Below are positions 7,201 through 50,881 of a stretch of 64,000 bases of DNA, piece by piece. Both the position numbers and the translations under genes were made by a program. The stretch's first letter is position 1. Each line of letters opens with the position of its first letter. Origin of the DNA: Phycisphaerae bacterium. GTDB lineage: Bacteria; Planctomycetota; Phycisphaerae; UBA1845; Fen-1342. The DNA is taken from contig JAGNKU010000005.1 in the NCBI GenBank assembly GCA_017999985.1, positions 124,001 to 188,000 on the forward strand, in the 5' to 3' direction. A model generated the notes under the pieces. It saw nothing but the letters and a program-made list of their open reading frames with translations, was not told where the DNA came from and did no database searches.

Positions 7201-7320
7201 AGCCGCGTGCGCACGCTGCACGCGCACAACCGCGCGTACGAGATGCTGGCCGAGCTGAACATCAAGGCCCGCACGCGCTACCTGGCGAAACTGCGTAACC
7301 CGGCACAGACCGAGACGTAA
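4228..7320 (+). CDS. actB: Alternative Complex III subunit ActB (molybdopterin-oxidoreductase-like domain fused to iron-sulfur domain)
   Basis: The 1030-residue product has a short N-terminal region typical of ActB ([15 protein letters not shown]), then a twin-arginine signal [11 protein letters not shown] at residues 46-56, predicting folded export. The large middle resembles complex iron-sulfur molybdoenzyme catalytic subunits; in ActB this domain is known to lack the cofactor. The C-terminal quarter is a ferredoxin-like domain with cysteine clusters [11 protein letters not shown] (from residue 780), [13 protein letters not shown] (from 839), then YCSNNCP, CTFC (942) and CAQACP. Length matches fused ActB proteins. 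It lies 34 nt after actA and 17 nt before actC. Confidence 0.95.
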
Positions 7321-7337
7321 CGAGGATCACGGCACCG

Positions 7338-8795
7338 ATGGCCTCCACGGTCGGCGAAATCGACAACACGCTCGAAGTCCCGGGCCAGCGCCCGACGCTG
7401 ATCACCGGCGGGCACGACTTCGGCTCGCTGACCGACCGCGTGGCCGCCGTCTGGGAAGCGCCGCGCCCGCCCCGCGCCTGGTACATCGCCTTCACCATCT
7501 CGGTGGTGCTGCTGGCCATCCTCGGGGCGATGATCGGCTACCTGGTCTTCAACGGCGTGGGCGTGTGGGGGCTGAACAACCCCGTGAGCTGGGGTTTCGA
7601 CATCACCAACTTCGTGTTCTGGGTCGGGATCGGCCACGCCGGCACGCTGATTTCCGCGATCCTGTTCCTCTTCCGCCAGAAATGGCGCACCAGCATCAAC
7701 CGCTTCGCCGAGGCGATGACGATCTTCGCGGTGATGTGCGCCGGCATCTTCCCCGGCATTCACGTCGGACGCGTCTGGCTGGCGTACTGGCTGGGGCCCA
7801 TCCCCAACCAGATGGGCATGTGGCCGAATTTCCGCAGCCCGCTGCTGTGGGACGTCTTCGCCGTCAGCACGTACTTCACCGTGTCGCTGCTGTTCTGGTA
7901 CGTGGGCATGATCCCGGACCTGGCGACGTTCCGCGACCGCGCCACCAGCCGGTTCAAGCAGATCATGTACGGTCTGTTCGCGCTCGGCTGGACCGGCTCC
8001 TCGCGCAACTGGCACCGCTTCGAGCGCGCCTACCTGATTCTCGCCGCCCTGGCGACGCCGCTGGTGCTCAGCGTGCACTCGGTCGTCAGCTTCGACTTCG
8101 CCGTCTCGCAGCTCCCCGGCTGGCACACCACGATCTTCCCACCGTACTTCGTGGCCGGGGCCATCTTCGGCGGCTTCGCGATGGTGACGACGCTGGCCAT
8201 TCCGGCCCGACAGCTCTTCGGGCTCAAAGACATCATCACGCCACGCCACCTGGAGAACATGTGCAAGATCATCCTGCTCACCGGCAGCATGGTCGGCTAC
8301 GCGTACATGCTCGAGTTTTTCATCGCCTGGTACAGCGGCTCGCCGTACGAGGGCTTCATCTTCCGCGCCCGCGCGCTCGGCCCGTATGCCTGGGCCTACT
8401 GGACCATGATCGCCTGCAACGTGCTCATGCCGCAGCTCTTCTGGTTCAAGAAGGCTCGCACGCACCCGGGGCTCATGTTCCTCGTTGTCATGGCGGTGAA
8501 CGTGGGCATGTGGTTCGAGCGCTTCGTGATCGTTGTGTCGTCGCTGGCGCAGGACTTCCTGCCGTCGAGCTGGGACTACTACCGGCCAACCTGGGTCGAG
8601 TTGCTCACGCTCGCCGGCAGCTTCGGCCTGTTCTTCACCCTCTTCCTGCTGTTCTGCCGGTTCCTGCCGATGGTCGCGATGGCCGAGGTGAAGACGGTCA
8701 TGCCACACGCTGACGCGCACGCACATCCGCACGAGCACGTGCCGGCGACGCGGCGTTTCGATTACAACCCGGACGAGTACGAACCGCCGAAATAA
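7338..8795 (+). CDS. actC: Alternative Complex III membrane subunit ActC (NrfD/PsrC family)
   Basis: This 485-residue polytopic protein has about ten hydrophobic helices and belongs to the NrfD/PsrC-like quinol-interacting family; in ACIII ActC and ActF form the membrane core that binds quinol. Recognisable stretches include [19 protein letters not shown], the Arg/His-containing [14 protein letters not shown] and [13 protein letters not shown]. The C-terminus ends in a soluble His-rich tail ([13 protein letters not shown]). ATG at 7338, 17 nt after actB and 6 nt before the next gene, inside the same operon. Confidence 0.95.
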
Positions 8796-8804
8796 GGAGT
8801 CGTG

Positions 8805-10079
8805 TTGAGCACCGCCACGCCGCACAATTCGCCCCCGCCACAGCAGCCGCATCTCGCCGGCCTGCTGGCCGAGTTCGACTCGCCCGGGGCGCTGGTCACG
8901 GCCGCCGAGCGCGTGCGCGACGCCGGCTACCAGCGGTGGGACACGCATTCGCCGTTCCCGGTGCACGGGATCGACGAGGCCATGGGCATCCGCCCGACGC
9001 GGCTGCCGTGGATCGTGCTGGCACTGGGCATCGCGGGCTGCACGGCGGGGCTGCTACTGCAATGGTGGACCAACGCGACCGATGTGCGGCAATTCGGGTT
9101 CGTGCCGACGCACTTCCAGGGCTACGCCTTCGTCGTCAGCGGCAAGCCGCTGTTCAGCCTGCCGGCGAACATCCCGGTCATTTTCGAGACGACCGTGCTG
9201 CTGGCCGCACTCGGCGCGGTCATCGGCATGCTGGCGATGAACAACCTGCCGCGGCACCACCGCCCCCTGCTCGCCCACCCGCGGTTCAAACGCGCCACCA
9301 CCGATCGTTTCTACGTCGTCATCGACGCGGCGGACCCGCGCTTCGACGCGACCACGACGCGCGCGTTCCTCGGCACGCTGGGCGGCACGGCGGTCGAAGC
9401 TGTCGAAACACTGGTTTCATCGGCGAAGCTGCCGCGCGCGTTCGTGATCGGCGGCCTGATCGTCGCGTGCCTGGCCCTGCTGCCACCGCTGTTCATCGCC
9501 CGGGCCCGCGTGGTCCAGACCGACCGACCGCGCATCCAGATCATCCAGGACATGGACAACCAGGAGCGCTTCAAGACGCAGCAGGCCGCGGCAATCTTCG
9601 CAGACGGCCGCGCGATGCGTCCACAGGTGATCGGCACACTTGCACGCGGCGACCTGCGCCGGGACACGCACTTCTACGCGGGCACGCGGGACGGCGATTT
9701 CGCGACGACGTTCCCGCCGCAGATCGAAATCGACACGGCGTTCGTCCGCCGGGGCCAGCAGCGGTTCAACATCTACTGTGCCCCGTGCCACGGCCTGGGC
9801 GGTGCCGGCGACGGCATCGTCGCGCAGCGGGCCATCAACCTCGGCACGCCCGGCTGGGTGCCGCCGACGAACCTCGCGACCGACCCCACGGTCATCGAAC
9901 GCCCCGTTGGTCACCTCTTCAATTCAATCACGAACGGCATTCGCACGATGCCGCCGTACGGCGACCAGATTCCCGAGTCCGACCGCTGGGCGATCATCGC
10001 CTATGTGCGTGCCCTGGAGCGCAGCCAGAACGCGCGGCTGGAGGACGTGCCGCCCGAGTTGCAGCCGGAATTGCGGTGA
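8805..10079 (+). CDS. ActD-ActE fusion: DUF3341 membrane protein joined to monoheme cytochrome c
   Basis: Two ACIII subunits that are separate genes in many bacteria appear here as one 424-residue chain. Residues 1 to about 170 match ActD (DUF3341): a soluble N-terminus (LAEFDSPGALVTAAERVR, PFPVHGIDEAMG) and two membrane helices flanking FGFVPTHFQGYAFVVSGKP. A further membrane helix at about 205-230 leads to a periplasmic cytochrome c domain with heme motif CAPCH (residue 325) and a probable distal Met in IRTMPPYG. AAGGAG at 8794-8799 favours the TTG at 8805 over a GTG at 8802 that lies only 2 nt from it. The heme domain probably relays electrons from ActA/ActB. Confidence 0.9.
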   Translation: MSTATPHNSPPPQQPHLAGLLAEFDSPGALVTAAERVRDAGYQRWDTHSPFPVHGIDEAMGIRPTRLPWIVLALGIAGCTAGLLLQWWTNATDVRQFGFVPTHFQGYAFVVSGKPLFSLPANIPVIFETTVLLAALGAVIGMLAMNNLPRHHRPLLAHPRFKRATTDRFYVVIDAADPRFDATTTRAFLGTLGGTAVEAVETLVSSAKLPRAFVIGGLIVACLALLPPLFIARARVVQTDRPRIQIIQDMDNQERFKTQQAAAIFADGRAMRPQVIGTLARGDLRRDTHFYAGTRDGDFATTFPPQIEIDTAFVRRGQQRFNIYCAPCHGLGGAGDGIVAQRAINLGTPGWVPPTNLATDPTVIERPVGHLFNSITNGIRTMPPYGDQIPESDRWAIIAYVRALERSQNARLEDVPPELQPELR

Positions 10080-10087
10080 GCAGATCG

Positions 10088-11311
10088 ATGAGCACAGGCA
10101 GCAAGAACGTGAGTGAAGTCCGGCGGATCGGCGAGCCCGCGCGGCGCGCGGCCCGGATCGCCGCCGCGCTCGGCGTGCTCGGGCTGGCCGGCGGCGCGGC
10201 ACTCGGCTTCGTCAGCGGGTGGGACGTGTTTTTCCGCTCGTATTTGCTCAACTACTGCTACATCCTGAGCCTCGCGCTCGGCGCGCTGTTCTTCGTGCTG
10301 CTCCAGCACCTCGTGCGCGCTGGCTGGAGCGTCTCCGTTCGCCGGCTGGCCGAATTCACCGCGCAGACCCTGCCGCTGCTGGCCATCCTGTTTCTCCCGC
10401 TGCTGGTGCCGGTGCTGACCGGCATGCGCGGCGTGTGGGAATGGACCGATCCGCACGCGGTGGCCGCGGATGCCCTGCTGCAACACAAGCGGCCGTACCT
10501 GAACGTCCCGTTCTTCATCATCCGGGCGGCGTTCTACTTCACCGTGTGGGTGGCCCTGGCGCGCTTCTTTTACCGCCAGTCCGTCGCGCAGGACACGACC
10601 GGCGATCCGCGGCTGACGCTCCGCATGCAGTGGTGGAGCGGCCCCGGCATGGTGCTCTTCGCCCTGACGGTCACGTTCTTCGCGTTCGACGCGCTGATGT
10701 CGCTCAACCCGCACTGGTTCAGCACGATCTTCGGCGTGTACTTCTTCAGCGGCTGCGCCGTGGGGTTCTTCGCGCTGCTGGCGATCCTCGTCAGCGCCGT
10801 GCAGCGCGGCGGCTGGCTGAAACGCTCCATCACCGTCGAGCACTACCACGACATCGGCAAGCTCGCCTTCGGCTTCGTCGTGTTCTGGGCCTACATCGCC
10901 TTCTCGCAGTACCTGCTCATCTGGTACGCGAATCTGCCGGAAGAGACCGTCTGGTACCTGCCCCGGCAGGGCGACACGTGGTGGATCGGCGTGAGCCTGC
11001 TGCTGCTGGGCGGGCACTTCGTGGCCCCGTTCCTGGCGCTGCTGTCGCGCTGGCCGAAGCGCCGCCCGGGCACGCTCGCCCTGGCCGGCGCGTGGCTGCT
11101 GTTGATGCACTGGCTGGACCTGTACTACCTCGTGGCACCGCGGCCGCACGCCGGCGAACACACGGCCCCTCTGCACGCCACGGACGGACTATTGCTGCTC
11201 GGCCTGGGCAGCCTGTTTGTCGCCGCGCTGGTCCGGCCGATGGTGCATACGTCATTGATCCCCGAGCGCGACCCGCGGCTGCCCGAGTCCCTGGCGTTCC
11301 AGAACGTGTGA
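10088..11311 (+). CDS. actF: Alternative Complex III membrane subunit ActF (NrfD/PsrC-like)
   Basis: The 407-residue product has about ten predicted transmembrane helices and is the second NrfD-like membrane subunit of ACIII. Characteristic segments include RSYLLNYCYILSLALGALFF, HKRPYLNVPFFIIRAAFYF, FFAFDALMSLNPHWFSTIFG and FWAYIAFSQYLLIWYANLPE. The ATG at 10088 lies 8 nt after the stop of the actD-actE fusion. The open frame extends far upstream over that gene, but only the part from 10088 has protein-like composition and membrane helices. It is 10 nt before the next gene. Confidence 0.93.
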   Translation: MSTGSKNVSEVRRIGEPARRAARIAAALGVLGLAGGAALGFVSGWDVFFRSYLLNYCYILSLALGALFFVLLQHLVRAGWSVSVRRLAEFTAQTLPLLAILFLPLLVPVLTGMRGVWEWTDPHAVAADALLQHKRPYLNVPFFIIRAAFYFTVWVALARFFYRQSVAQDTTGDPRLTLRMQWWSGPGMVLFALTVTFFAFDALMSLNPHWFSTIFGVYFFSGCAVGFFALLAILVSAVQRGGWLKRSITVEHYHDIGKLAFGFVVFWAYIAFSQYLLIWYANLPEETVWYLPRQGDTWWIGVSLLLLGGHFVAPFLALLSRWPKRRPGTLALAGAWLLLMHWLDLYYLVAPRPHAGEHTAPLHATDGLLLLGLGSLFVAALVRPMVHTSLIPERDPRLPESLAFQNV

Positions 11312-25688: not shown

Positions 25689-26186
25689 TCACCAGTCCTC
25701 GTACATCAGAGCCACAATCCGGGCGGCCAGGCGGTCGATGGCCCGCTCCTGGGCGAACTTCTCGCTCTCGCCGGTGGGGTTCAGATAGTCCACCGTCTGG
25801 AGCATGGCCGGCTGATCCACCAGCAGGCGTCCGGTGCGGATGTCCTTCCACTGAACCCGGACCGTGAGGTTCAGGTGCTTCTCGCGCGGCTGCCGGGTCT
25901 GGTAGTCGGGCGCGAACGCCGCCTGCCGCTCTTCCAGTACTTCCGCTACCAATATGGTATCGGCCTTTTCACGCGGGGCCAGCCGATAAGGCGTGTCCAT
26001 CCCGATTCGCTTCTTCAGGGCTTCCGTGAGCGTGAATTCCAGGTCCCGGCGAAATTCCTTCGACCCGACCATGTCCACATACACGGTCCGCACGTCCGTC
26101 CGATACGGACCACCGGCCCGATATCCGCACCCGGAAACGGACACCAGCACGAGCAGCAGGCCGGCCACGAGGTGGGGTCTGGTCAC
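25689..26186 (-). CDS. LptE-like lipopolysaccharide-assembly lipoprotein
   Basis: The 165-residue product has a lipoprotein signal (GLLLVLVSVSGC) directly followed by GYRAGGPY, then a compact alpha/beta domain (TVYVDMVGSKEFRRDLEFTL, VAEVLEERQ) in the style of LptE, the outer-membrane lipoprotein that plugs LptD during LPS insertion. Sequence conservation in this family is low, so the call rests on signal, length and the GYR start. Its GTG overlaps the stop of the BamD-like gene (GTGA), grouping two outer-membrane assembly functions in one operon upstream of ftsH. Confidence 0.75.
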   Translation of the reverse strand: MTRPHLVAGLLLVLVSVSGCGYRAGGPYRTDVRTVYVDMVGSKEFRRDLEFTLTEALKKRIGMDTPYRLAPREKADTILVAEVLEERQAAFAPDYQTRQPREKHLNLTVRVQWKDIRTGRLLVDQPAMLQTVDYLNPTGESEKFAQERAIDRLAARIVALMYEDW

Positions 26187-27193
26187 GGCGCGACGTCCTC
26201 CGCCGGAGTCTCCCCGGTCGCGGCCCCCATGGCCCGCAGGCGCGTGTGTGCCTGCCCGGCGGCCAGCGTGTCCGGCCAGTCCTTCAGAATCTGCCGGTAA
26301 TAAAACTCCGCCGCGCTGGGCTGACGCGTCCGTTCGTACCAGCGGGCGATGTCGAGGTCTTTCTCCGCCCGCTGCTGCCGGATGCCTTCCAGGCGCTGCG
26401 CGACGTTCTCGCGCTCGGCATACCCGGGAAACGCTGCCATCAACTGCCGATAGCGCTCGTCCGCCTCGACCAGCGGCGTGGCGTCGAAACGGATGCCGGG
26501 GAAAGCAGCCTCGGCGGACTCTGCCGTGCGCAGCATCGCAAACTGCACGTAGCGCCCGCTGGCATACTGCTGGGCCAGGTTGGCGTACTCATCCTGAGCC
26601 AGATCGAGATCGCCGTGCGAGAAGTAGTAATCCGCCTTCAGCTTCAGCGCCAACTCGCCCAGCCGCGAGCCGGGGACGCGCTCCCAGACGCGATCGAGAA
26701 TCTCAACGCCCTCGGCGTACGCGGGCAGGCGCAGGACGCGCCAGACGATGCGCTTCTGTCCGGACAGAAACGCGCGGGCCACGTCGACACACCGCTGGTT
26801 GGCCAGTTCGAAAATCTCGCCGGACGCATCGTCCGCGACGCTGGTGTAGCGCTTCACCGCCTGCCAGAAATCGCGGCCTTCAAAGTATGTATCGCCGAGC
26901 AAGAGCGTCGCCTCATAGCTGCGCTCATCGTCGGGGTTGGCCTTGATCCAGCGCTTCAGCAGCGTGCGGGCCTTGCCGGGTTTGCCCTCTGCGAGATAGG
27001 CACGGGCCTGCCCCAGCTCGTCGGTCGGCTCACCTTCAATGGGCGCCTCTTCGGCAACCCACTCATCCGTGTCCGGGTCGAGTACTTGGCGTTCGCGGTA
27101 ACGTTGCTCCTGCGAGAGCAACGAGAACTCCGTCAGCACCGCCACCAGGCTGGTGAGTGCGATCACGCGAAAATCCATGCCGAGGTTGATCAT
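26183..27193 (-). CDS. BamD-like TPR protein
   Basis: The 336-residue protein has an N-terminal hydrophobic segment (FRVIALTSLVAVLTEFSLL) without a clear lipobox, then TPR-like helix pairs (ARAYLAEGKPGKARTLLKRW, YEATLLLGDTYFEGRDFWQA, FYYRQILKDWPDTLAAGQAH). The pattern of short repeats with Y-x-x-L-x-x-x-P-D resembles BamD/YfiO outer-membrane assembly factors, but the missing lipid-attachment cysteine and atypical length leave room for another envelope TPR role. It is co-transcribed with the lptE-like gene. A strong promoter lies immediately upstream with almost no leader. Confidence 0.7.
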   Translation of the reverse strand: MINLGMDFRVIALTSLVAVLTEFSLLSQEQRYRERQVLDPDTDEWVAEEAPIEGEPTDELGQARAYLAEGKPGKARTLLKRWIKANPDDERSYEATLLLGDTYFEGRDFWQAVKRYTSVADDASGEIFELANQRCVDVARAFLSGQKRIVWRVLRLPAYAEGVEILDRVWERVPGSRLGELALKLKADYYFSHGDLDLAQDEYANLAQQYASGRYVQFAMLRTAESAEAAFPGIRFDATPLVEADERYRQLMAAFPGYAERENVAQRLEGIRQQRAEKDLDIARWYERTRQPSAAEFYYRQILKDWPDTLAAGQAHTRLRAMGAATGETPAEDVAP

Positions 27194-30221: not shown

Positions 30222-30764
30222 TTGGCCCTCGACGCCCGATTGCGAGCCATCCGCGCCGTATGCCTGGACGTGGACGGCGTGCTCACCGACGGCCGGTTGT
30301 ACATCGACGACACCGGCCGCGGCGCGCGGCTGTTCGACGTTCACGACGGCTTCGCGCTCTATTGGTACCAGCGGCTCGGCGGCATCGTCGTGATCTGCTC
30401 CGGCAAGCACTCGGAGGCCGTCGCGGTGCGGGCCGCTGAGCTCGGGATCACCCACGTGGTCCAGGGCAGTCGCGACAAGCCCGCCGACCTGGCGCCGCGG
30501 CTGGCGGAAATCGGGCTCGGCTGGTCTGAGCTGGCAGTCATCGGCGACGACCTGCCCGACGTGCCGCTGCTGCACCGCTGCGGTTTCCCGATCGCGGTCG
30601 CGAACGCGGTGGACGAGGTCAAGGCCGTCGCGCAACTGGTGACGCGGCGCGCCGGCGGGCGCGGCGCCGTCCGCGAGGCGCTCGAACATCTGATGCGGGC
30701 GACCGGACGCTGGGCGGAAGTGCAGGCCCATTACGGTCTCGCGCGAACCGCGCGGCCCGACTGA
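30222..30764 (+). CDS. KdsC-like HAD phosphatase (3-deoxy-D-manno-octulosonate 8-phosphate phosphatase family)
   Basis: The 180-residue HAD-superfamily protein has the nucleophile motif CLDVDGVLTDGRLYI (Asp16 and Asp18), motif II Ser in VVICSGKHSEAV, motif III Lys in GSRDKPADL and motif IV GDDLPDVPLL. Length and lack of a cap domain match KdsC, which makes free Kdo for lipopolysaccharide; YrbI-type sugar-acid phosphatases are an alternative. The TTG start is preceded by AAGGA about 10 nt upstream. It lies 14 nt before the LptC/LptA-like gene, an order (kdsC then lptC, lptA) also found in Gram-negative LPS operons, which supports the call. Confidence 0.87.
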   Translation: MALDARLRAIRAVCLDVDGVLTDGRLYIDDTGRGARLFDVHDGFALYWYQRLGGIVVICSGKHSEAVAVRAAELGITHVVQGSRDKPADLAPRLAEIGLGWSELAVIGDDLPDVPLLHRCGFPIAVANAVDEVKAVAQLVTRRAGGRGAVREALEHLMRATGRWAEVQAHYGLARTARPD

Positions 30765-30778
30765 CAGGATCCGGAACC

Positions 30779-33700
30779 ATGGTGCGCAACATCGTCCTTG
30801 CCGTTTCTTCGCTGGCCGTCCTCGGGCTGCTCTTCGCGGCGTACTGGCTGCTTCTGGGAACGCCCGCCAGCGCGCCGGTCGAGCGCCCGGTCACGGAGAC
30901 TCTGCAGACGCCCCAGGTGCCCACGACGCAGCCGCTCAAGATCGGCGACGCGATCGAAGTGCCCGCCGGCGGCAAGATCATCTTCCGCCGCTTCGACGAG
31001 AAGACCGGCCGCCCGCGGGATATGTTCGCGTGCCAGGACTGGCAGCCCGTGCCCGACGCACGGAACGAGATTCGCGTGACGGCCCCCGAGCTGGCCATGC
31101 TGCTGCCCAGCGGGATGATCGCCACGATCACGGCGGACGCGGGCCAGATCACGGTGGACCGCGTCGAACAGTCGCAGATGCGGCCCAAGAACGGCCATCT
31201 CGCGGGCCACGTGCGCATCGTCGTCGATCGCGACACCGCGCCCGAGCGCACGCCGGCGGCCGAACGGCCGGAAGACCTGATCACCATCAGCGTCGACCGC
31301 CTCGAGTTCGACCTGGAGCTGGGCGAACTGCAGACCAACGAGCGGCTGACCGTGGCCAGCGAGGATTTCGAGATCGCCGGCAGCGGGCTGCACCTGATCT
31401 GGAACCAGGCCGACAACCGGATCGAGACGCTCTCGATTGCCCATGGCGAGGAGTTCGTGCTCTACCCCGCCGCCGGCCTGTTCGGCATGGTGACGAACGA
31501 CGAGCAAGCCGGGCCACCCCCTACGCCACCCCTGCAGGCCGGCGAGCCGCCGCGCCGGCGCCCGCGGCCGCGGCGCGCGACGGCGTACCAGTGCATCCTC
31601 GACGGCGGGCTGGTGGCGGAGCAGTTCCGGGGCGCGGAGCGCGTCGGCGGCCTGGAGGCCGACGAAGTGAAGCTGTTGTTCGACGTGGGCGGCGGCGCCG
31701 ACAAGTTCCTCCGGTCGCGCCCGACGTCCGCCCCCGCCACGCGCCCGGCGCGCGAGGAGCGCGAACGGCTCGTCCTGCGCTGGAACGGGCGGCTGCAACT
31801 GACGCCCACGGCCGCGGCGCCGGCCGGCGAGCCCAACCGTCGGCGGTTCGAGGCCCGCGGCCACCCCGTGGTGCTGTCGCGCGGCGACGGCCACGTGCGC
31901 TGCGGGCAGGTCGCGTTTCACGATGACACGCAGCGCGTCTGGCTGTATCCGATGGAAGGCGGCACCGTCGAGTTCGGCCTGGGAGCGAAGCTGGCCGCCG
32001 CGGCCCAGAGCATCTACATCGACCGCCTGGCGCGCATCGTCAAGCTGATCGGCAACGTCGAGCTGCGCTCCCAGCGCGGCACGGGCACGACGGCCCGGCT
32101 GTCTGCGATCCGCTGCGCGTACTGGGGCGAATTGCACATCGCCGCGGGCGCGGCGACGACGCAGCCCACCGCGACCGACGACGCATTGCTGACCGCCGAG
32201 CGGCTCGAATCGGCCGTGTTCGTCGGCGACGTGCAGGTGGACCTGGGGGCGCAGCAACTCACCGGGCACCGCCTCGATGTCGGCTTCCGCGCCGACGCCG
32301 GCGGGCAGACGCTCGAGGAACTGCTCGACACGGCGCAGGCCTCGGGCAACGTGCGGCTGACGAGCGGCAACGGCCGGCTGGAGTGCGGCGATCTGCGGTT
32401 GGTGTTCGACCTGACGCCCGCGCACGAGTTGTACCCGTACCAGATGGACGCCACCGGCGCGGTGCTCATCTCGCGCGGTGCGACCAGCATTCGGGGCCAC
32501 CGCGTCACCGCCGATCTCGCGCCGCCGCCGGAACAACCCGGCGCCAAGGCGGTGTTCGTGATCCGCGCGCTGCGCGTGCTGGGGGCGGCGGAGCTGATCG
32601 ATCCGGACAACCGGGTCGCGGCCCGCGGGCATGAGATCGCGGCCGCGTTCGCAGGCGTCAACGAGCTGACCACGGCCACGGTCCGCGGCGGCGAGGGCGA
32701 GTTCGGCGTCGTCCACGCGCGGCCGTACACCGTGCGGGGCGAGCTGATCAGCCTCGACCGCGCCGCCCAGACGGTGCACGTCGACGGCCTCGCGCGCCTC
32801 TCGTTCAAGACGCAGCGCAGCCTGCAGGGCGAGTCGCGCAGCCAGCCCACGCCGATCGTCGTGCACAGCCGCCGGCTGCTGCACATCGACGGGTTGCGCA
32901 ACACGGTGCGCTTCGAGGGCGACGTGCGCGCGGACAGCGGCGACGAGCAGTTGCAGGGCGACACGCTGACGCTGCTGCTCGAAGACATCACGGCGCCGCC
33001 CGCGCCTGCGCCGACCACGCTCTCGCTGCGCGATGTGTGGCGGACGGCGCGGCGCCTGCTCGGCGGCCAGGGCGATTTGCCGTCAAAGGATGACCTCTTC
33101 GCGCTGCGCGTCAGCGGCCCCACCGAGCGCTTCCGCAAGGAACCCGTGCGCCTGACCGCGGACCACGCGCTGGTCGCCAGCGAGAGCTACGCCCCCGGCG
33201 AAGACCTGCCCGTCGTGCACACCAGCATCTCGGCACCGCTGCTCGAAGTGGACATCATCAACCGGCAGATCACCACGACCGGCGAGACGGAACTCCTGAT
33301 GACGGATCGGCGCGGCCTCAACGACGTCGAGCCCGCGCGCGACGCGCTGGGCGTCCCGTCGGCGCTGCTCAGCCGCGGGGCCAGCCAGACCGCGATGGGC
33401 TGCCTCGGCCGCATGACGTACACCCTGGGCGTGGACGGCCCCGACCGGCGTGACACGGTCGTGTTCGAGGACCGCGTGGTCTTCGTGCACCGCACCGGCA
33501 AGGAAATGGTGGACGTGGAGCAGATGCTGCCACGCGGCACCGACCGGACCGTCGCGGTGGAGAATCTCAAGAGCCGCAACGCCACGCTCGACTGCGATCG
33601 GCTGGAATGCTGGTTCAGCGTGGACTCGGCCGCGCCGCGCGCCGCGCGCGGCGGCGTGCTCACGCGGGCCCCGCTGCGCCTGGCCTCGCTGATCGCGTCC

Positions 33701-33943
33701 GGCGGCGTGTACCTGCGCGATCAGGAGGAGGCCCGCGTCCGCGAAGTGAACGCGGCGTGGATCGAGTTCAATCGCGAACTCGGCCGCATCCACGTGCGCG
33801 GCGCGCCCCAGGCCGACGCCCGCGTCTACTTCGAGAACCTGCAATCCGGTCAGTTCGACGTGCACGCCGGCCCGGAACTGGTCATCAATCTCAACGACGG
33901 AACGATCCGCACCGACACGCTGACGGGTGAAATCCGGCGGTGA
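30779..33943 (+). CDS. Very large LptC/LptA-like (OstA-fold) envelope protein
   Basis: The 1054-residue protein has one N-terminal membrane helix (IVLAVSSLAVLGLLFAAYWL) and a long exported region made of repeated beta-rich segments of LptA/OstA type: for example ITADAGQITVDR, IYIDRLARIVKLIGNVELRS, LEELLDTAQASGNVRLTSGN and RFEGDVRADSGDEQLQGDTL, where 'GNV' or 'GDV' strands are followed by polar turns. LptC and LptA are each about 180-200 residues and form the beta-jellyroll bridge that carries LPS across the periplasm. Here one chain could build several units of that bridge. The position directly after a kdsC-like gene supports this. Substrate and partners are inferred. Confidence 0.7.
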   Translation: MVRNIVLAVSSLAVLGLLFAAYWLLLGTPASAPVERPVTETLQTPQVPTTQPLKIGDAIEVPAGGKIIFRRFDEKTGRPRDMFACQDWQPVPDARNEIRVTAPELAMLLPSGMIATITADAGQITVDRVEQSQMRPKNGHLAGHVRIVVDRDTAPERTPAAERPEDLITISVDRLEFDLELGELQTNERLTVASEDFEIAGSGLHLIWNQADNRIETLSIAHGEEFVLYPAAGLFGMVTNDEQAGPPPTPPLQAGEPPRRRPRPRRATAYQCILDGGLVAEQFRGAERVGGLEADEVKLLFDVGGGADKFLRSRPTSAPATRPAREERERLVLRWNGRLQLTPTAAAPAGEPNRRRFEARGHPVVLSRGDGHVRCGQVAFHDDTQRVWLYPMEGGTVEFGLGAKLAAAAQSIYIDRLARIVKLIGNVELRSQRGTGTTARLSAIRCAYWGELHIAAGAATTQPTATDDALLTAERLESAVFVGDVQVDLGAQQLTGHRLDVGFRADAGGQTLEELLDTAQASGNVRLTSGNGRLECGDLRLVFDLTPAHELYPYQMDATGAVLISRGATSIRGHRVTADLAPPPEQPGAKAVFVIRALRVLGAAELIDPDNRVAARGHEIAAAFAGVNELTTATVRGGEGEFGVVHARPYTVRGELISLDRAAQTVHVDGLARLSFKTQRSLQGESRSQPTPIVVHSRRLLHIDGLRNTVRFEGDVRADSGDEQLQGDTLTLLLEDITAPPAPAPTTLSLRDVWRTARRLLGGQGDLPSKDDLFALRVSGPTERFRKEPVRLTADHALVASESYAPGEDLPVVHTSISAPLLEVDIINRQITTTGETELLMTDRRGLNDVEPARDALGVPSALLSRGASQTAMGCLGRMTYTLGVDGPDRRDTVVFEDRVVFVHRTGKEMVDVEQMLPRGTDRTVAVENLKSRNATLDCDRLECWFSVDSAAPRAARGGVLTRAPLRLASLIASGGVYLRDQEEARVREVNAAWIEFNRELGRIHVRGAPQADARVYFENLQSGQFDVHAGPELVINLNDGTIRTDTLTGEIRR

Positions 33944-44413: not shown

Positions 44414-47400
44414 ATGGCGGAACACGGCGACAAGATCGACAGCATCATGCGCGACCTGCACGAACGGGCCAAGGAACTGAACTGCCTCTACACCGTGGAG
44501 GAGCTGGCGAACGACGCGGATTCATCACTGGACGACGTCTTTCGCGGTGTGATCAAGGCCCTGCCGAACGGCTGGCAGTACCCGGACATGTGCCAGGTGC
44601 GCATCATGTTCAACGGCACGACCTACCAACCCCCGGATTACGTGGAGTCGCCGTGGAGCCAGAGCGCCACCATCTGGGTGCGGGGCCAGCCGGTTGGCAC
44701 GCTCGAAGTGTCTTACAGGCGCATGATGCCGCCGGAAGACGAAGGCCCCTTTCTGAAAGAAGAGCGGAGGCTGATCGACTTCATCGCCGACCGGCTCGGC
44801 AACTGCGTGACGCACCGGCAGCTCATGGAAGGGATGCGCGACTGGCGCTCCACCGAGCACGCCCTGACGCACAACACCATGCAGGATTGGACGGTGATCA
44901 TCGACCTGCTGCGGCGGACGGACCAGGCCCTGCTGCTCCGCATCGCGCGCAAGATGATCAATCACCTGTGCTGGAGCGGCGTGAAGGACGCGGACGTGCT
45001 GCTCCAGAACTTCGGCGGTCCGGGGCAGCCCGCCCAGCCGGATCCCCTGCTGGAGATCAACCGGCCACGCCGCGTAGACAACGGTCCGCGGGCCGAGACG
45101 CTGGTGGACGAGGCCTTTCGCCTCGCGGCGGTGCACCTCAGCGACGCGGAGATCGTGGCCTGCATCCACAAGTGGATGAAGCAGGACCGCGCGAGCTTCC
45201 TGGTCAACACGCTCGAGAACTACCACACGTCGCTTGCCGAGGTCGGCGACGCGCTGCAACGCTACGAGCACGCGACGCACGGCGAGGTCGAGCTGTCGCC
45301 CTCCACCATGAGCGGGCTGCGCGTCTCGCTGATCCGCCGGCTGCTCACCGGGCAGCTCGAGTTCATCAACGTCGCCAAGCGCTACCTGGACATCCGCGAC
45401 TTCCACGAGCTGATGCACCGGATGATCTACCCCGGCGAGGGCCACGGCAAGATCGGGGGCAAGAGCTCGGGCTTGCTGCTGGCCGGGCATATCGTCCGGC
45501 AACACGCGGCCACGAACGAGGTGCTGGCCGGCCTGAAGGTGCCGAAGACCTGGTACGTGACGTCCGACGGACTCTATGATTTCGTGTACACCAACCACCT
45601 GGAAGATGTCTTCACGCAGAAGTACAAGGACATCGACCAGATTCGCCAGGAATACCCCGACATCGTGCAGGTCTTCAAGCACTCGCATTTCTCGCCCGAG
45701 ATCATCCGCGGCCTGTCGCTGGCCCTCGACGAGTTCGGCGAGCAGCCGCTGATCGTCCGCAGCTCCAGCCTGCTCGAGGACCGTTTCGGGGCGGCATTCT
45801 CCGGCAAGTACAAGAGCCTGTTCCTGGCCAACCAGGGCCACAAGCGCGAACGCATGGCCGCGCTGCTCGACGCCATCGCCGAGGTCTACGCGTCCACCTT
45901 CAGCCCCGACCCGATCCTCTACCGCACCGAGCGCAACCTGCTCGATTTCCAGGAGGGTATGGGGATCATGATCCAGGAGGTCGTGGGGACGCGGGCCGGC
46001 GATTATTTCGCCCCAGCGTTCGCCGGCGTCGCCTTCAGCCACAACGAGTTCCGCTGGTCGCCGCGCATCAAGCGCGAAGACGGCCTGGTGCGGCTGGTCC
46101 CCGGCCTCGGCACACGGGCGGTCGACCGGCTCGGCGACGACTACCCCATCCTGGTGTCGCCCGGACAGCCTGGCCTGCGCGTCAACGCCACGGTCGAGGA
46201 AGTGGTGCGCTACTCGCCCAAGTACATCGACGTGATCAACCTGCGCACGAACAGTTTCGAGACGGTCGAGATCGCGCAGTTCCTGCGCGCCTGCGGAGGA
46301 CAGTGGCCCGGTGTCGAGCAGCTGGTTTCCGTCTACGACCACGGCAACCTGCGCCAGCCGCTGCTCGGGCAAGTGGACTTCGAGCGTGACGACCTGGTCG
46401 TGACCTTCGAGGGTCTGCTCGCGCGCACGACATTCCTGAAGCAGATGCGCACCGTGCTCACGTTGCTCGAGACCGAGATCAAGTCGCCGGTGGACATCGA
46501 GTTCGCCTCCAACGGCCGCGACCTGTACCTGCTGCAATGCCGGGCGCAGACGCCCGCCCGTCACTGCACGCCGGCGCCGATCCCGCGCGACATACCACGC
46601 GACCGACTGCTCTTCTCCGCCCATCGCCACGTGTCGAACGGCAGCGTGCCCGACATCACGCACATCGTCTACGTCGACCCGGAGCAGTACAGCTGCATCG
46701 GGAGCCTCGAACGCCTGACCGCAGTCGGCCGGGCCGTCGGCAAGCTCAACAAGCTCCTGCCTAAGCGGCAGTTCATCTTGATGGGCCCGGGGCGCTGGGG
46801 CAGTCGCGGCGACATCAAGCTTGGCGTGCGCGTCACTTATTCCGACATCAACAACACGGCGATGCTGATCGAGATCGCGCGCAAGAAGGGCGACTACACG
46901 CCGGACCTCTCCTTCGGCACGCACTTCTTCCAGGACCTCGTGGAGGCCTCGATCCGCTATTTGCCGCTGTACCCGGACGAGGACGGCGCGGTGTTCAACG
47001 AGCGCTTTCTGACTGGCTCCGGGAACATGCTGGCCGACCTGGCACCCGAGTTCGCCGCGCTGTCCGATGTGGTCTACGTCATCGACGTGGCGCGCGCCAC
47101 CGACGGCCGCGCGCTGCGCGTCCTGATGAACGCCGATCTCGACGAGGCCGTCGGCGTGCTGGCGGCCCCGACCACCACGATCGAACCCGCCGTCACCGAC
47201 GAGGCCGTGGACCGGCCCCAGCGCGAGCAATACTGGCGCTGGCGCCTGCGCATGGCGGAGCGCATCGCCAGCCAGATCGACCCCACCCGCTTCGGCGTGC
47301 AGGGCGCGTACGTGTTCGGCAGCGTGAAGAACGGCACCGCCGGCCCGGCCAGCGACATCGACCTGCTCGTGCATTTCCGCGGCAGCGCCGACCAGCGCGC

Positions 47401-47620
47401 GGCCCTGGAACGCTGGCTCGAGGGCTGGAGCCTGTGCCTGAGCGAGATGAACTACCTTCGCACCGGGTACAAGACCGACGGTCTGCTCGACGTTCACATC
47501 GTCACCGATGCGGACATCGCCAGCCGCACCAGCTTCGCCCTCAAGATCGACGCGGTCACCGACGCCGCCCGGCCCCTGGCCTTGAAGCACGCGCCGTCCG
47601 ACGATATCAAGGCTGAATAA
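44414..47620 (+). CDS. GAF-like + PEP-synthase-like ATP-grasp + nucleotidyltransferase fusion protein
   Basis: This 1068-residue cytoplasmic protein shows four parts. Residues about 20-135 look GAF-like (SYRRMMPPEDEGPFLKEERR, then LIDFIADRLG). Residues 140-320 are helical. Residues 340-715 form the PPDK/PEP-synthase ATP-grasp: GGKSSGLLLAG (348), IVRSSSLLEDRFGAAFSGKY (449), IMIQEVVG (about 518) and LYLLQCRAQTP (about 708). Then the module shared with the previous gene: GPGRWGSRGDIKLGVRVTYS and SFGTHFFQDL. Residues about 950-1060 are a minimal nucleotidyltransferase with GS at 969-970 and DID at 981-983. No phosphohistidine TSH or PEP barrel is present. A GAF domain suggests small-molecule sensing and the NTase suggests nucleotidylation; both roles are inferred. 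Confidence 0.8.
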   Translation: MAEHGDKIDSIMRDLHERAKELNCLYTVEELANDADSSLDDVFRGVIKALPNGWQYPDMCQVRIMFNGTTYQPPDYVESPWSQSATIWVRGQPVGTLEVSYRRMMPPEDEGPFLKEERRLIDFIADRLGNCVTHRQLMEGMRDWRSTEHALTHNTMQDWTVIIDLLRRTDQALLLRIARKMINHLCWSGVKDADVLLQNFGGPGQPAQPDPLLEINRPRRVDNGPRAETLVDEAFRLAAVHLSDAEIVACIHKWMKQDRASFLVNTLENYHTSLAEVGDALQRYEHATHGEVELSPSTMSGLRVSLIRRLLTGQLEFINVAKRYLDIRDFHELMHRMIYPGEGHGKIGGKSSGLLLAGHIVRQHAATNEVLAGLKVPKTWYVTSDGLYDFVYTNHLEDVFTQKYKDIDQIRQEYPDIVQVFKHSHFSPEIIRGLSLALDEFGEQPLIVRSSSLLEDRFGAAFSGKYKSLFLANQGHKRERMAALLDAIAEVYASTFSPDPILYRTERNLLDFQEGMGIMIQEVVGTRAGDYFAPAFAGVAFSHNEFRWSPRIKREDGLVRLVPGLGTRAVDRLGDDYPILVSPGQPGLRVNATVEEVVRYSPKYIDVINLRTNSFETVEIAQFLRACGGQWPGVEQLVSVYDHGNLRQPLLGQVDFERDDLVVTFEGLLARTTFLKQMRTVLTLLETEIKSPVDIEFASNGRDLYLLQCRAQTPARHCTPAPIPRDIPRDRLLFSAHRHVSNGSVPDITHIVYVDPEQYSCIGSLERLTAVGRAVGKLNKLLPKRQFILMGPGRWGSRGDIKLGVRVTYSDINNTAMLIEIARKKGDYTPDLSFGTHFFQDLVEASIRYLPLYPDEDGAVFNERFLTGSGNMLADLAPEFAALSDVVYVIDVARATDGRALRVLMNADLDEAVGVLAAPTTTIEPAVTDEAVDRPQREQYWRWRLRMAERIASQIDPTRFGVQGAYVFGSVKNGTAGPASDIDLLVHFRGSADQRAALERWLEGWSLCLSEMNYLRTGYKTDGLLDVHIVTDADIASRTSFALKIDAVTDAARPLALKHAPSDDIKAE

Positions 47621-47677: not shown

Positions 47678-50600
47678 GTGGACGACATCGAACTGCAACG
47701 CGCCCTGCGCGAGCTCGCCGCTCGCTTAAGTCGCCTCGAACGCCTGGCCGGGATCACCCCCCCCATCGAAAGCACGCCCAGCGCACCTGTACCGCCGCCC
47801 CCGCCGCCGCCCGCGCCTAGGGACGCGGAGCCACCACCGGCGCCAGCGCCGGTGCCGGAACCGGCCATCATCGAGTTGATTCGCACGCCAGCGCCACCGG
47901 CGGCGCCACCCATCAAGCTGCAGGCGGCCGTTCCAGTGATCCAGGGTTCTCCGCCGGCCAAGCCGCCGCGTCCCGCGCGCCAGATCTCGCTGGAGCAGCT
48001 CATCGGCGAGCGCTGGATGGCCTGGGTCGGCGCGCTGGTCGTCGTGCTGGCCGCCGGTTTCTTCGTCAAGCTGGCCTACGATCTCGGCTGGTGGGGCCGG
48101 TTGCCGCCGCTGGCCAAGTGCCTGATCAGCGCCGCGTTCGGCGCAGCGCTGGTCGCCGGCGGTGAGATCGCCCTGCGTCGCGTGGGGCGCATCGCCGCCG
48201 TCAGCCTGTTCGGGGCCGGGCTCGGCACGCTCTACCTCACCGCCTACGCGACCTTCCGCTATTTCAACCTGCTGTCGCAGTCGGGCGCGTTCTGGCTCAT
48301 GCTGCTGGTGGCCCTGCTCGGCTTCGCGCTCACGCTGCGCGGCCACCTGGTGGCCATCGGCATCCTCTCGCTCATCGGCGGTTACCTGAGCCCGATCCTC
48401 CTGTCAGAGCAAGTCACCTTCGCCGCCGCCCTGCCGCTCTACATCACCATGCTGCTCGCCGTCGCGCTCGCGCTGTCGGCGGTCCTCCCCGAGCCGTTCC
48501 GGTTGCTGCGCTACGTGGGCATCGCGCTCCACCTGATCGTCGCGACACTCTGGGCCTACCGCGAAGGCAGCGGCCACTGGCTCATCGCCGTGTCGTTCGC
48601 CACGCTGTGGTGGGCACTGGTAACGGCGGAAACGCTCTGGGCGGCTTTTCGCGGTCAGTCGCCGCGTGGCAACCCGACCGTCAGCCTGCTTTTCACGTTC
48701 TGGTATGTCTCGCTCGGCTGTGGCGTGCTGGCCGCCGCCAACCCCGGCGAGCGCAACTGGCTGGGGCTGTTCACCGGCTGCGTGGCGGCAGTGTGTGCCT
48801 GGCTGGCGTTGCCGCTGGGTCCGGGCGTGTCGGTGCTGCGCATCCGACCCCGCCGGGCCATCGAGCGGATGATCGCCGCCCTCTGGGCGCAAGTCGGCAT
48901 CCTGTGCGCTGCCGCCATCGCCGTGCAGTTTCGCGAGGGGTCGCAATCGTACGGCATGACGATCGGCTGGCTGGTGATGGCCGTGGCGTGCATCGAGCTA
49001 GGCCGGCGGCTGCCGTCGCGCGCGGTGGATGTGTTCGGCCTGCTCATCGGCCTGCTTGCCCTGGTCCGCGTCTGGGGCGTCGACTCGTTCCACCCTGCGC
49101 TCCCCACGCCGAGATGGTCGTACGGCAATCTAAGCGTCAGTTACTGGGCCGTGCTCGTGCTCGGCGCTATCACCGCCACGCAATTCGCCGCGCGGCGGCT
49201 GCGGCTGCATGGCGACTGCGCCTGGCTGTGGCTCACGCAGTGGCTGACCTGGCTCAGCGCCTTGCAATGGCTCGTGCTGTGCGTCTTCACGTGCCGCGGC
49301 CTGGCGCTGACAACCGGGTGGCTCGTCGGGGCCGCCGCGCTGCTCGCGGCATCGTCCTGGAAGCCCAGCCCGGCGTGCCGGCCGGCGGCCGTGTTCCTAC
49401 TGGTCTGCGCGGCCGCGAAATGGCTGCTCGGTGACGCCCTGGGCACGCGGACGTCCGGCGCGTGGGATCCGAACGCCACGCAGCCATTCGCGAACTGGCA
49501 AATGGGCGTCGCGCTGCTGCTCTTCGCCGGTGCGTGCGGCGTCTACCGGGTCTACACCCGGCGCCGCGCGACCGCCCCGCTGGACGAGTCGCCGGCGGAT
49601 GAAGTCGCGCCGGTGCGCCCCTCCGCCTTCGCGGGCGGCGTGCTCGTCGTCGCCGTATGTTTCCTCATCACCGCGCTGAGCTTTGAGGTGGAGCACCTGA
49701 TTGGCCAGCTCGAAACCACCCGGCCCACCGGCGCGCCGCGCCCGGCCGAGGACCCGTCCCAGACCCGTCTGCTCTGGTTCGCCTTACTGTGGGCCGGCGG
49801 CGGACTGGCGGCGCTGATCTACGGTCGCGCGCGGGGGATCAGCGCGCTCGCCGCCGCAGGCACGGCGATCATCACCCTCGCCGGCCTGACCTGGCTGATT
49901 CCGGGCACACTCTCCTGGCGCATCGTGCACGGCGTCACACTGTGCCCCGTCTTGGTCAACATCACGTTCGGCATCGGACTGGCCACCGCGGCCGCCGTGT
50001 TCGTGACCGGCATGCTACTGAGACGAGACGCGCAGCCGGGATGCGCCGACGTCATGCCACGCGCCGCACAAACCGCGTTCACGGCCGTGCTTTCGTTGGT
50101 GCTGATCGCGCTCGCCTTCGAGATCGATCGCTGGCTGGGACACCGCGCAGCCGCGCGGCCGGAAGGTGTGACGCCGCTGTGGACAGGCTGGCACGAACGT
50201 GCGCTCTGGGGCACACTGCTCGCCGCGGCGGGCGGACTGCTCGGGCTTGTGCTGGGACGCTGGCGCCGCGTCCCGCAACTGGTCGTCACGGGCTGGGCCC
50301 TCCTTATCGCCGCCGGCGTGGCCTGGTTGAGCGTCGGCACGCTTCTGCCGCGGCTCCATCACGGCGTCACGCTCAGTCCCGTGGTGTTGAACCTGCAGTG
50401 CGGCGTCGGCGTGCTGGCCGCCGTGCTCCTGGCCGCGGCGACCTGGTTCACGGCCCGCGACCAGACCGAGTGCGAGTCCCGACTGGTCGGCGTCTGGCTC
50501 GTCGCGCTCATCGGCTTGTGGCTCGGCAGCCTGGAGCTCGACCGCTTCTTCGCCCCGGCCGCGGCGCGCGTCAGCAACCCGGCGATGGCGCGGCAGACGG

Positions 50601-50881
50601 CATGGAGCGTCTACTGGGCCCTGTACGCGATCGGCTTCGTGGCCGTCGGGTTCTGGAAACACTCCGCCGCCACACGCTACGCGGGCCTGGGCCTGCTGGC
50701 AATCACGCTGGCCAAGGTGCTGATCGTCGATTTGGCGCATGTGCAGTACGCGTATCGCGTGCTGTCGCTGCTTGTCGTGGGTCTGTTGCTCATCGGTACT
50801 TCGATCGCGTACTCGCGCCTGGCATCGGTGCTCTTGCGGCCGCAGACGCCGACCACCAATCCGACGCAGCGCAAGGAGTAA
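47678..50881 (+). CDS. DUF2339-family polytopic membrane protein
   Basis: The 1067-residue protein has an N-terminal coiled-coil-like segment (LQRALRELAARLSRLERLAG), a Pro-rich linker (residues about 35-100), the anchor-proximal motif LEQLIGERWMAWVGALVVVL, and then some 25 hydrophobic helices to the C-terminus. The GERWMAWVG start of the membrane region is typical of DUF2339, a family of unknown function. It begins 57 nt after the nucleotidyltransferase fusion and may be co-transcribed. No enzymatic motif was found. Confidence 0.85.
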   Translation: MDDIELQRALRELAARLSRLERLAGITPPIESTPSAPVPPPPPPPAPRDAEPPPAPAPVPEPAIIELIRTPAPPAAPPIKLQAAVPVIQGSPPAKPPRPARQISLEQLIGERWMAWVGALVVVLAAGFFVKLAYDLGWWGRLPPLAKCLISAAFGAALVAGGEIALRRVGRIAAVSLFGAGLGTLYLTAYATFRYFNLLSQSGAFWLMLLVALLGFALTLRGHLVAIGILSLIGGYLSPILLSEQVTFAAALPLYITMLLAVALALSAVLPEPFRLLRYVGIALHLIVATLWAYREGSGHWLIAVSFATLWWALVTAETLWAAFRGQSPRGNPTVSLLFTFWYVSLGCGVLAAANPGERNWLGLFTGCVAAVCAWLALPLGPGVSVLRIRPRRAIERMIAALWAQVGILCAAAIAVQFREGSQSYGMTIGWLVMAVACIELGRRLPSRAVDVFGLLIGLLALVRVWGVDSFHPALPTPRWSYGNLSVSYWAVLVLGAITATQFAARRLRLHGDCAWLWLTQWLTWLSALQWLVLCVFTCRGLALTTGWLVGAAALLAASSWKPSPACRPAAVFLLVCAAAKWLLGDALGTRTSGAWDPNATQPFANWQMGVALLLFAGACGVYRVYTRRRATAPLDESPADEVAPVRPSAFAGGVLVVAVCFLITALSFEVEHLIGQLETTRPTGAPRPAEDPSQTRLLWFALLWAGGGLAALIYGRARGISALAAAGTAIITLAGLTWLIPGTLSWRIVHGVTLCPVLVNITFGIGLATAAAVFVTGMLLRRDAQPGCADVMPRAAQTAFTAVLSLVLIALAFEIDRWLGHRAAARPEGVTPLWTGWHERALWGTLLAAAGGLLGLVLGRWRRVPQLVVTGWALLIAAGVAWLSVGTLLPRLHHGVTLSPVVLNLQCGVGVLAAVLLAAATWFTARDQTECESRLVGVWLVALIGLWLGSLELDRFFAPAAARVSNPAMARQTAWSVYWALYAIGFVAVGFWKHSAATRYAGLGLLAITLAKVLIVDLAHVQYAYRVLSLLVVGLLLIGTSIAYSRLASVLLRPQTPTTNPTQRKE

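Follow-up and report, generated by a model that had tools for sequence, protein, structure and literature searches.

The stretch of DNA considered here (the window) comprises 64,000 nucleotides of contig JAGNKU010000005.1 from the Phycisphaerae bacterium assembly GCA_017999985.1 (contig positions 124,001–188,000, forward strand). At positions 30222–30764 of the plus strand lies an open reading frame (ORF) of 180 amino acids (aa) with a TTG start, encoding a HAD phosphatase of the KdsC family (3-deoxy-D-manno-octulosonate 8-phosphate phosphatase-like). After a gap of 14 bp it is followed on the same strand by an ORF of 1054 aa with an ATG start (30779–33943). An earlier note on this DNA had placed a KdsC-like gene and an LptC/LptA-like gene at exactly these positions, and this holds. 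The upstream product scores 129.1 bits with TIGR01670, the model of the KdsC subfamily (cut-off 106.95), and falls below the cut-off of the stricter KdsC equivalog NF007019 (115.7 against the 208 required); the long product passes the Pfam model PF03968. On profile comparisons and a predicted structure, the product of the long gene is very probably an LptC naturally fused to several units of LptA type, forming a single-chain periplasmic bridge of lipopolysaccharide (LPS) transport (Lpt). The protein is classed as an LptC-(LptA)n fusion, and as neither LptA nor LptC, because the definitions of both describe short proteins that stand alone.

The region is 68% GC, so that long chance ORFs are frequent, and one of 717 aa sits on the opposite strand; the GC content at the third codon position of the 1054-aa gene is 92.6%. 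The long ORF is nevertheless a real gene, because a nine-member profile of its relatives, all nine drawn from the sampled class genomes, matches 59 of the 61 genomes of Phycisphaerae in the sample. A chance ORF is ruled out by these homologues.

The chain begins with a predicted membrane helix at residues 2–25 (30782–30853; all parts of the chain are on the plus strand), placed by the structural model and by hydropathy, the highest 19-residue hydropathy window starting at residue 5 with a value of 2.21. The remainder was dissected with hhalign, using one profile of 20 first ORFs (LptC position) and one of 20 second ORFs (LptA position) from non-planctomycete kdsC loci. The LptC-position profile finds one confident placement, at residues 64–231 (30968–31471; probability 98.95%, E 1e-17), a part that also matches the LptC structure 9doq_C in the predicted model; its runner-up reaches 63.9%. 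Beyond the LptC part the LptA-position profile finds several placements, four of them nearly non-overlapping, at 94.9–97.9%. They mark putative LptA-like units at residues 262–426 (31562–32056; 96.0), 475–683 (32201–32827; two overlapping placements, 475–584 and 531–683, at 96.6 and 97.9), 687–909 (32837–33505; 94.9, including a stretch of low model confidence at 740–788) and 876–1048 (33404–33922; 97.4), the last overlapping the third by 34 residues.

Control comparisons gave much lower values. With the long alignment reversed, the best probabilities are 19.8% (LptC profile) and 3.4% (LptA profile), none of ten column shuffles exceeds 0.2%, and a KdsC decoy gives 0.0%. The two profile sets were drawn from loci matching the long-chain profile and are therefore not fully independent of it, and three of the 20 loci (L186, L188 and L191) may not be clean lptC/lptA pairs; the Pfam and NCBIfam evidence is independent. 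In the window protein PF03968 (LptD_N/LptA) scores 30.2 bits over a cut-off of 20.4, with its best stretch at residues 477–529. The Pfam scan gives no match to PF06835 (LptC) in this protein; the PF06835 cut-off is exceeded by the long-chain orthologues of 12 of the 61 class genomes. When 30 members of the family are scanned singly, LptD_N is found in 21 and LptC in seven. The picture is clearest in L236, a chain of 660 aa belonging to a different planctomycete family: it passes both curated cut-offs, LptC with 64.8 bits (cut-off 21) at residues 46–192 and LptD_N/LptA with 82.3 bits (cut-off 20.4) in three stretches, and has a KdsC-family ORF 487 bases upstream. Searched against Protein Data Bank (PDB) sequences with phmmer, the window protein alone finds no match, and the 30-member profile finds 19 at E<=0.1: eight LptA, ten LptD and one unrelated enzyme. 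An identification of the chain as LptD was rejected, the C-terminal outer membrane barrel (PF04453) being unmatched and a separate LptD gene being present in the genome.

A predicted structure leads to the same families. AlphaFold2 run on the single sequence gave a predicted local distance difference test (pLDDT) value of 32, and that model was discarded. The model used was built on a 12-sequence alignment taken from 17 planctomycete chains (the window protein and those of the kdsC loci), five out-of-class chains being left out for poor alignment; it has a mean pLDDT of 71 and a predicted template modelling score (pTM) of 0.52. Helix 2–25 is followed by 61 strands, which make up 52% of the residues. 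By structural comparison (VIA), the top match of the predicted model is LptD 9ia0 (Z 14.6, 156 residues aligned, 405–627). The LptA homologue LptH (4uu4) aligns with residues 438–610 (Z 12.0, root-mean-square deviation 2.3, 122 aligned). LptC structures match residues 59–229 with Z of 9.3–10, among them 4b54 (Z 10.0, 80–229) and 9doq_C (Z 9.5, 136 aligned, 59–220). VIA matches lie mostly within residues 392–734, and a lack of matches elsewhere carries no meaning. The best PDB matches by Foldseek are likewise LptD, LptA/LptH and LptC. The earlier proposal of a membrane-anchored chain of repeated OstA-type strands is borne out by the model, the profiles marking about four LptA-like units, and the predicted fold is not the non-jellyroll one that it had named as counter-evidence. 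Since a single LptA of E. coli contains about 16 strands, 61 would correspond to one LptC and about three to four LptA. If continuous, the rod would be roughly 150 Å long (at 4.8 Å per strand and two sheets), which, with the jellyrolls of LptF and LptD added, would be of the order of the width of the periplasm.

The partners of such a bridge are encoded in the same genome, as the earlier note had suggested looking for. Genes for LptF/G are neighbours (C1), LptB is over its cut-off (C12, 325.4 bits), and an LptD-type protein of 1001 aa scores 27.6 bits against a cut-off of 22.4. LpxC and WaaA are also present. An LptE-like lipoprotein of the same pathway, which the note had placed elsewhere in the window, is found at 25689–26186 on the minus strand (PF04390, 41.8 bits, cut-off 23). 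The LptE-like gene and a BamD/YfiO-like tetratricopeptide repeat gene (together 25689–27193, minus strand) overlap by 4 bp, so that genes of LPS transport and of barrel assembly adjoin. Across the class sample, LptF/G is found in 61 of 61 genomes, LptB over its cut-off in 57, LptD at E<=0.01 in 52 (over the cut-off in 41) and LpxC in 59, the genome of the window included.

A separate standard LptA or LptC, which the earlier note had held would speak against a one-chain bridge, was not detected in the window's genome by PF03968 at E<=0.1 or by PF06835 at E<=0.01. PF03968 can miss divergent members, because the same genome search at E 0.1 misses the window's own chain as well. In the class as a whole, all 17 LptC-family matches fall within the long chain. 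The 51 LptA-family matches (E<=0.1, 61 genomes) include none in an open frame of <381 aa; with four exceptions (G221:C33, G223:C6, G235:C109 and G238:C84), they map either to the long chain or to an LptD frame. With LptC and LptA parts in one chain and no separate gene detected, the one-chain bridge that the note put forward is supported in its main point.

Fusion is the usual state in Phycisphaerae. Among the 59 matching genomes, 51 have one intact ORF of about 900–1280 aa, seven have a chain cut by or located at contig ends, and in one (G241) the chain is divided between two ORFs (489 and 638 aa). In the locus L141, apparently the same as G241, the two chain ORFs (6744–10132) are in different frames, reflecting either a real split or an assembly error. 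Of the two genomes in which the nine-member profile finds no chain, G233 is 88% complete; the other, G236, is considered below. The closest named relative, L128, is from a Phycisphaerae metagenome-assembled genome and shares 35% identity over the chain; the named relatives found by way of kdsC belong to Phycisphaerae and to other Planctomycetota. In 48 of 60 class loci the chain is immediately preceded, on its own strand, by a KdsC-family ORF; of the twelve others, three are truncated by contig ends. A KdsD-type isomerase is present in 32 of the 60.

The same position was compared in other phyla. With the KdsC family as anchor, 80 kdsC loci were retained from a set of 84,980 species genomes, and 76 of the 2358 ORFs in them match the long-chain profile. 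The non-planctomycete loci have at this position two short genes, lptC and then lptA, each matching its own part of the chain; no matching ORF in them exceeds 305 aa, the length of the longest, and two separate ORFs are present in 20 of these loci. Twenty-three loci are planctomycete (22 by title, L143 by match), and 15 of these have one long ORF of 698–1221 aa; of the rest, three are truncated at contig ends, four show no match next to that kdsC, and in one (L141) the chain is split. All 76 matching ORFs are on the kdsC strand; relative to the end of the kdsC match, their starts range from 183 bases before it to 1706 bases after it. The order kdsC-LptC-LptA is therefore kept from proteobacteria to planctomycetes. 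As judged from these sequences, the change in planctomycetes is the loss of a gene boundary with the order unchanged. One record in the set, L177, titled Streptomyces cinereus, has a separate ORF of LptA type at its kdsC locus; this is unexpected for the genus and the record is perhaps mislabelled.

The long chain extends beyond the class. Of 199 genomes across the phylum, 120 have a match to the 30-member profile, a count in which some profile members come from those same genomes and weak matches may include LptD. In 39 out-of-class genomes chosen, non-randomly, from the stronger matches, 36 have one ORF of 607–1190 aa, preceded just upstream by a KdsC-family ORF in 21 cases, and three have no local match. 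On balance it seems slightly more likely than not that in most Planctomycetota the periplasmic LPS bridge is from end to end a single covalent LptC-(LptA)n chain, without soluble LptA.

Of the remaining genes of the window, all on the plus strand, a DNA N6/N4-methylase gene (PF01555; 33927–35510) has an ORF that overlaps the last 17 bp of the long gene. A 1068-aa protein (44414–47620) combines a pyruvate phosphate dikinase ATP-binding domain with a nucleotidyltransferase domain, a pairing that looks unusual, and a DUF2339 membrane protein of 1067 aa is encoded at 47678–50881. At 4228–8795 a 1030-aa ferredoxin-domain protein is followed by an NrfD-type membrane protein, a pair that we presume may belong to an alternative complex III-like respiratory complex.

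Compared with known systems, the chain resembles the LptC and LptA oligomer of E. coli in its gene order, kdsC-lptC-lptA as seen here in other phyla, in having an anchored LptC first and LptA after it with the same predicted fold, and in its partners LptB, LptF, LptG, LptD and LptE. It differs in being one chain of 1054 aa, whereas E. coli uses two short proteins and oligomerizes LptA (PMC10094684). Like LptC, it is predicted to start with one membrane helix and to continue with the LptC beta-jellyroll, and its gene directly follows kdsC, but LptC stands alone at about 190 aa. LptA is soluble, stand-alone and of about 160–185 aa, whereas the LptA-like units here lie within a long chain with an N-terminal membrane helix. 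The N-terminal domain of LptD is the best structural match and belongs to the PF03968 family, but the chain lacks the outer membrane barrel of LptD. Borrelia burgdorferi provides another Lpt-type bridge outside the proteobacteria, there with separate LptC and LptA genes (PMC10353723).

Several results weigh against the reading of the gene as a complete one-chain bridge. LptD_N/LptA is the only Pfam model over its cut-off in the window protein, and the NCBIfam models fall short, LptA (TIGR03002) with 22.7 against 71.7 at residues 689–732 and LptC (TIGR04409) with 15.7 bits against 38 at residues 96–206. In the predicted structure, pLDDT drops below 50 at residues 740–788 and in shorter linkers, and one continuous groove stays unproven by the model because of this and of the pTM. 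Within the class, G236 (98% complete, one contig) has no match to the chain, yet has LptF/G, LptD, LpxC and LptB. Ten further genomes of the phylum were picked mainly for short LptA-family frames. Three (G036, G004 and G018) have adjacent but separate LptC and LptA ORFs, and three others (G080, G114 and G145) have an LptC-LptA ORF of 343–501 aa downstream of kdsC, with a short LptA-like ORF encoded apart from it at another place; two (G098 and G010) have an LptA-like ORF of 167 aa, and the last two (G065 and G039) have an ambiguous architecture. As separate genes and short fusions occur in a few genomes, fusion is common and not universal across Planctomycetota. The architectures form a graded series that runs from separate genes up to LptC with about four LptA-like units; its states would be separate genes, LptC-LptA with a separate LptA, LptC-LptA3 and LptC-LptA4. 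The partial or absent fusions are seen in loci L262–L274.

The short fusions of G080, G114 and G145 are also an argument that the membrane-anchored protein makes only part of the bridge and that the remainder is supplied by a soluble LptA too divergent for the models; the LptA family model falls short of E 0.1 on the window's own chain as well. We consider this unlikely, since none of the 51 LptA-family matches of the class is in a short frame and the long chain already has about four LptA-like units, more than the fusions that are accompanied by a separate LptA. A bridge of the same fold might instead carry another glycolipid or a phospholipid and not LPS of the lipid A type; in Borrelia, which is without LPS, an Lpt-like system may carry the glycolipids (PMC10353723). 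Such a cargo is quite improbable here given LpxC in nearly all class genomes including this one, WaaA, LptD and LptE in the genome, a KdsC-family gene adjoining the chain, and the finding that nearly every lipid A gene (lpxABCDKL) is essential in Planctopirus limnophila, in a paper whose text does not contain the term ‘Lpt’ (PMC10632474). P. limnophila is a tractable planctomycete for which genetic tools are available (PMC5394234).

There is likewise little chance that the chain is a precursor whose cleavage after export yields an anchored LptC and soluble LptA units, and with them a working bridge of the conventional kind. The low-confidence linkers at 233–265, 305–322 and 740–788 would offer places for such cleavage and the two ORFs of G241 might be seen in the same light, but the fused state is kept in the 51 intact chains of the class, with one split and the others at contig ends. 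Bridges of the TamB/YhdP/AsmA type consist of one long beta-rod chain joining two membranes, as is proposed here, and are similar in chain length and shape. The idea that the protein is such a lipid transporter, or an unrelated beta-rich protein merely resembling LptA, is very improbable: none of the 30 chain members has a TamB or AsmA Pfam match (E<=0.01), as opposed to the LptD_N and LptC matches among them, and 18 of the 19 PDB sequence matches are LptA or LptD.

The LptC-(LptA)n fusion thus most likely works as the Lpt bridge, as far as profiles and model can tell. LptB2FG would push LPS from LptF into the LptC-like domain, as in E. coli, lipid A would slide along a continuous hydrophobic groove of stacked LptA-like units, and the last unit would dock onto the N-terminal domain of LptD, so that LPS would be passed from LptB2FG to LptDE by a covalent chain. 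The number of units per bridge would be set by the gene and not by oligomerization of soluble LptA. The chain would also dispense with the LptA–LptA and LptA–LptC contacts, for which inhibition constants (Ki) of 34.9 nM and 1.8 uM, respectively, were obtained in E. coli with modified constructs (PMC10208570). A tethered bridge would in addition escape dilution; the source paper for this point names, in its accessible part, P. limnophila, Gemmata and Rhodopirellula, and not Phycisphaerae.

No description of the fusion was found in the accessible open-access literature, preprints and most subscription papers lying outside this scope. LptD has served as a marker in Planctomycetes (PMC3422733), and the planctomycete Lpt system was called largely reduced in a survey whose models centred on sequences from E. 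coli (PMC8871954). The chain may help to explain this apparent reduction, as both parts could be present in one divergent chain. The number of LptA molecules in the Lpt bridge was called unknown in a 2023 review (PMC10094684), and with this variant of a known system it becomes testable. A natural single chain fixes the number and order of the LptA units. A bridge of this kind could be expressed and imaged, and its units removed one at a time, in an environmental bacterium that is harmless, and the graded architectures of the phylum offer a route to study the transition from an oligomer to a single chain.

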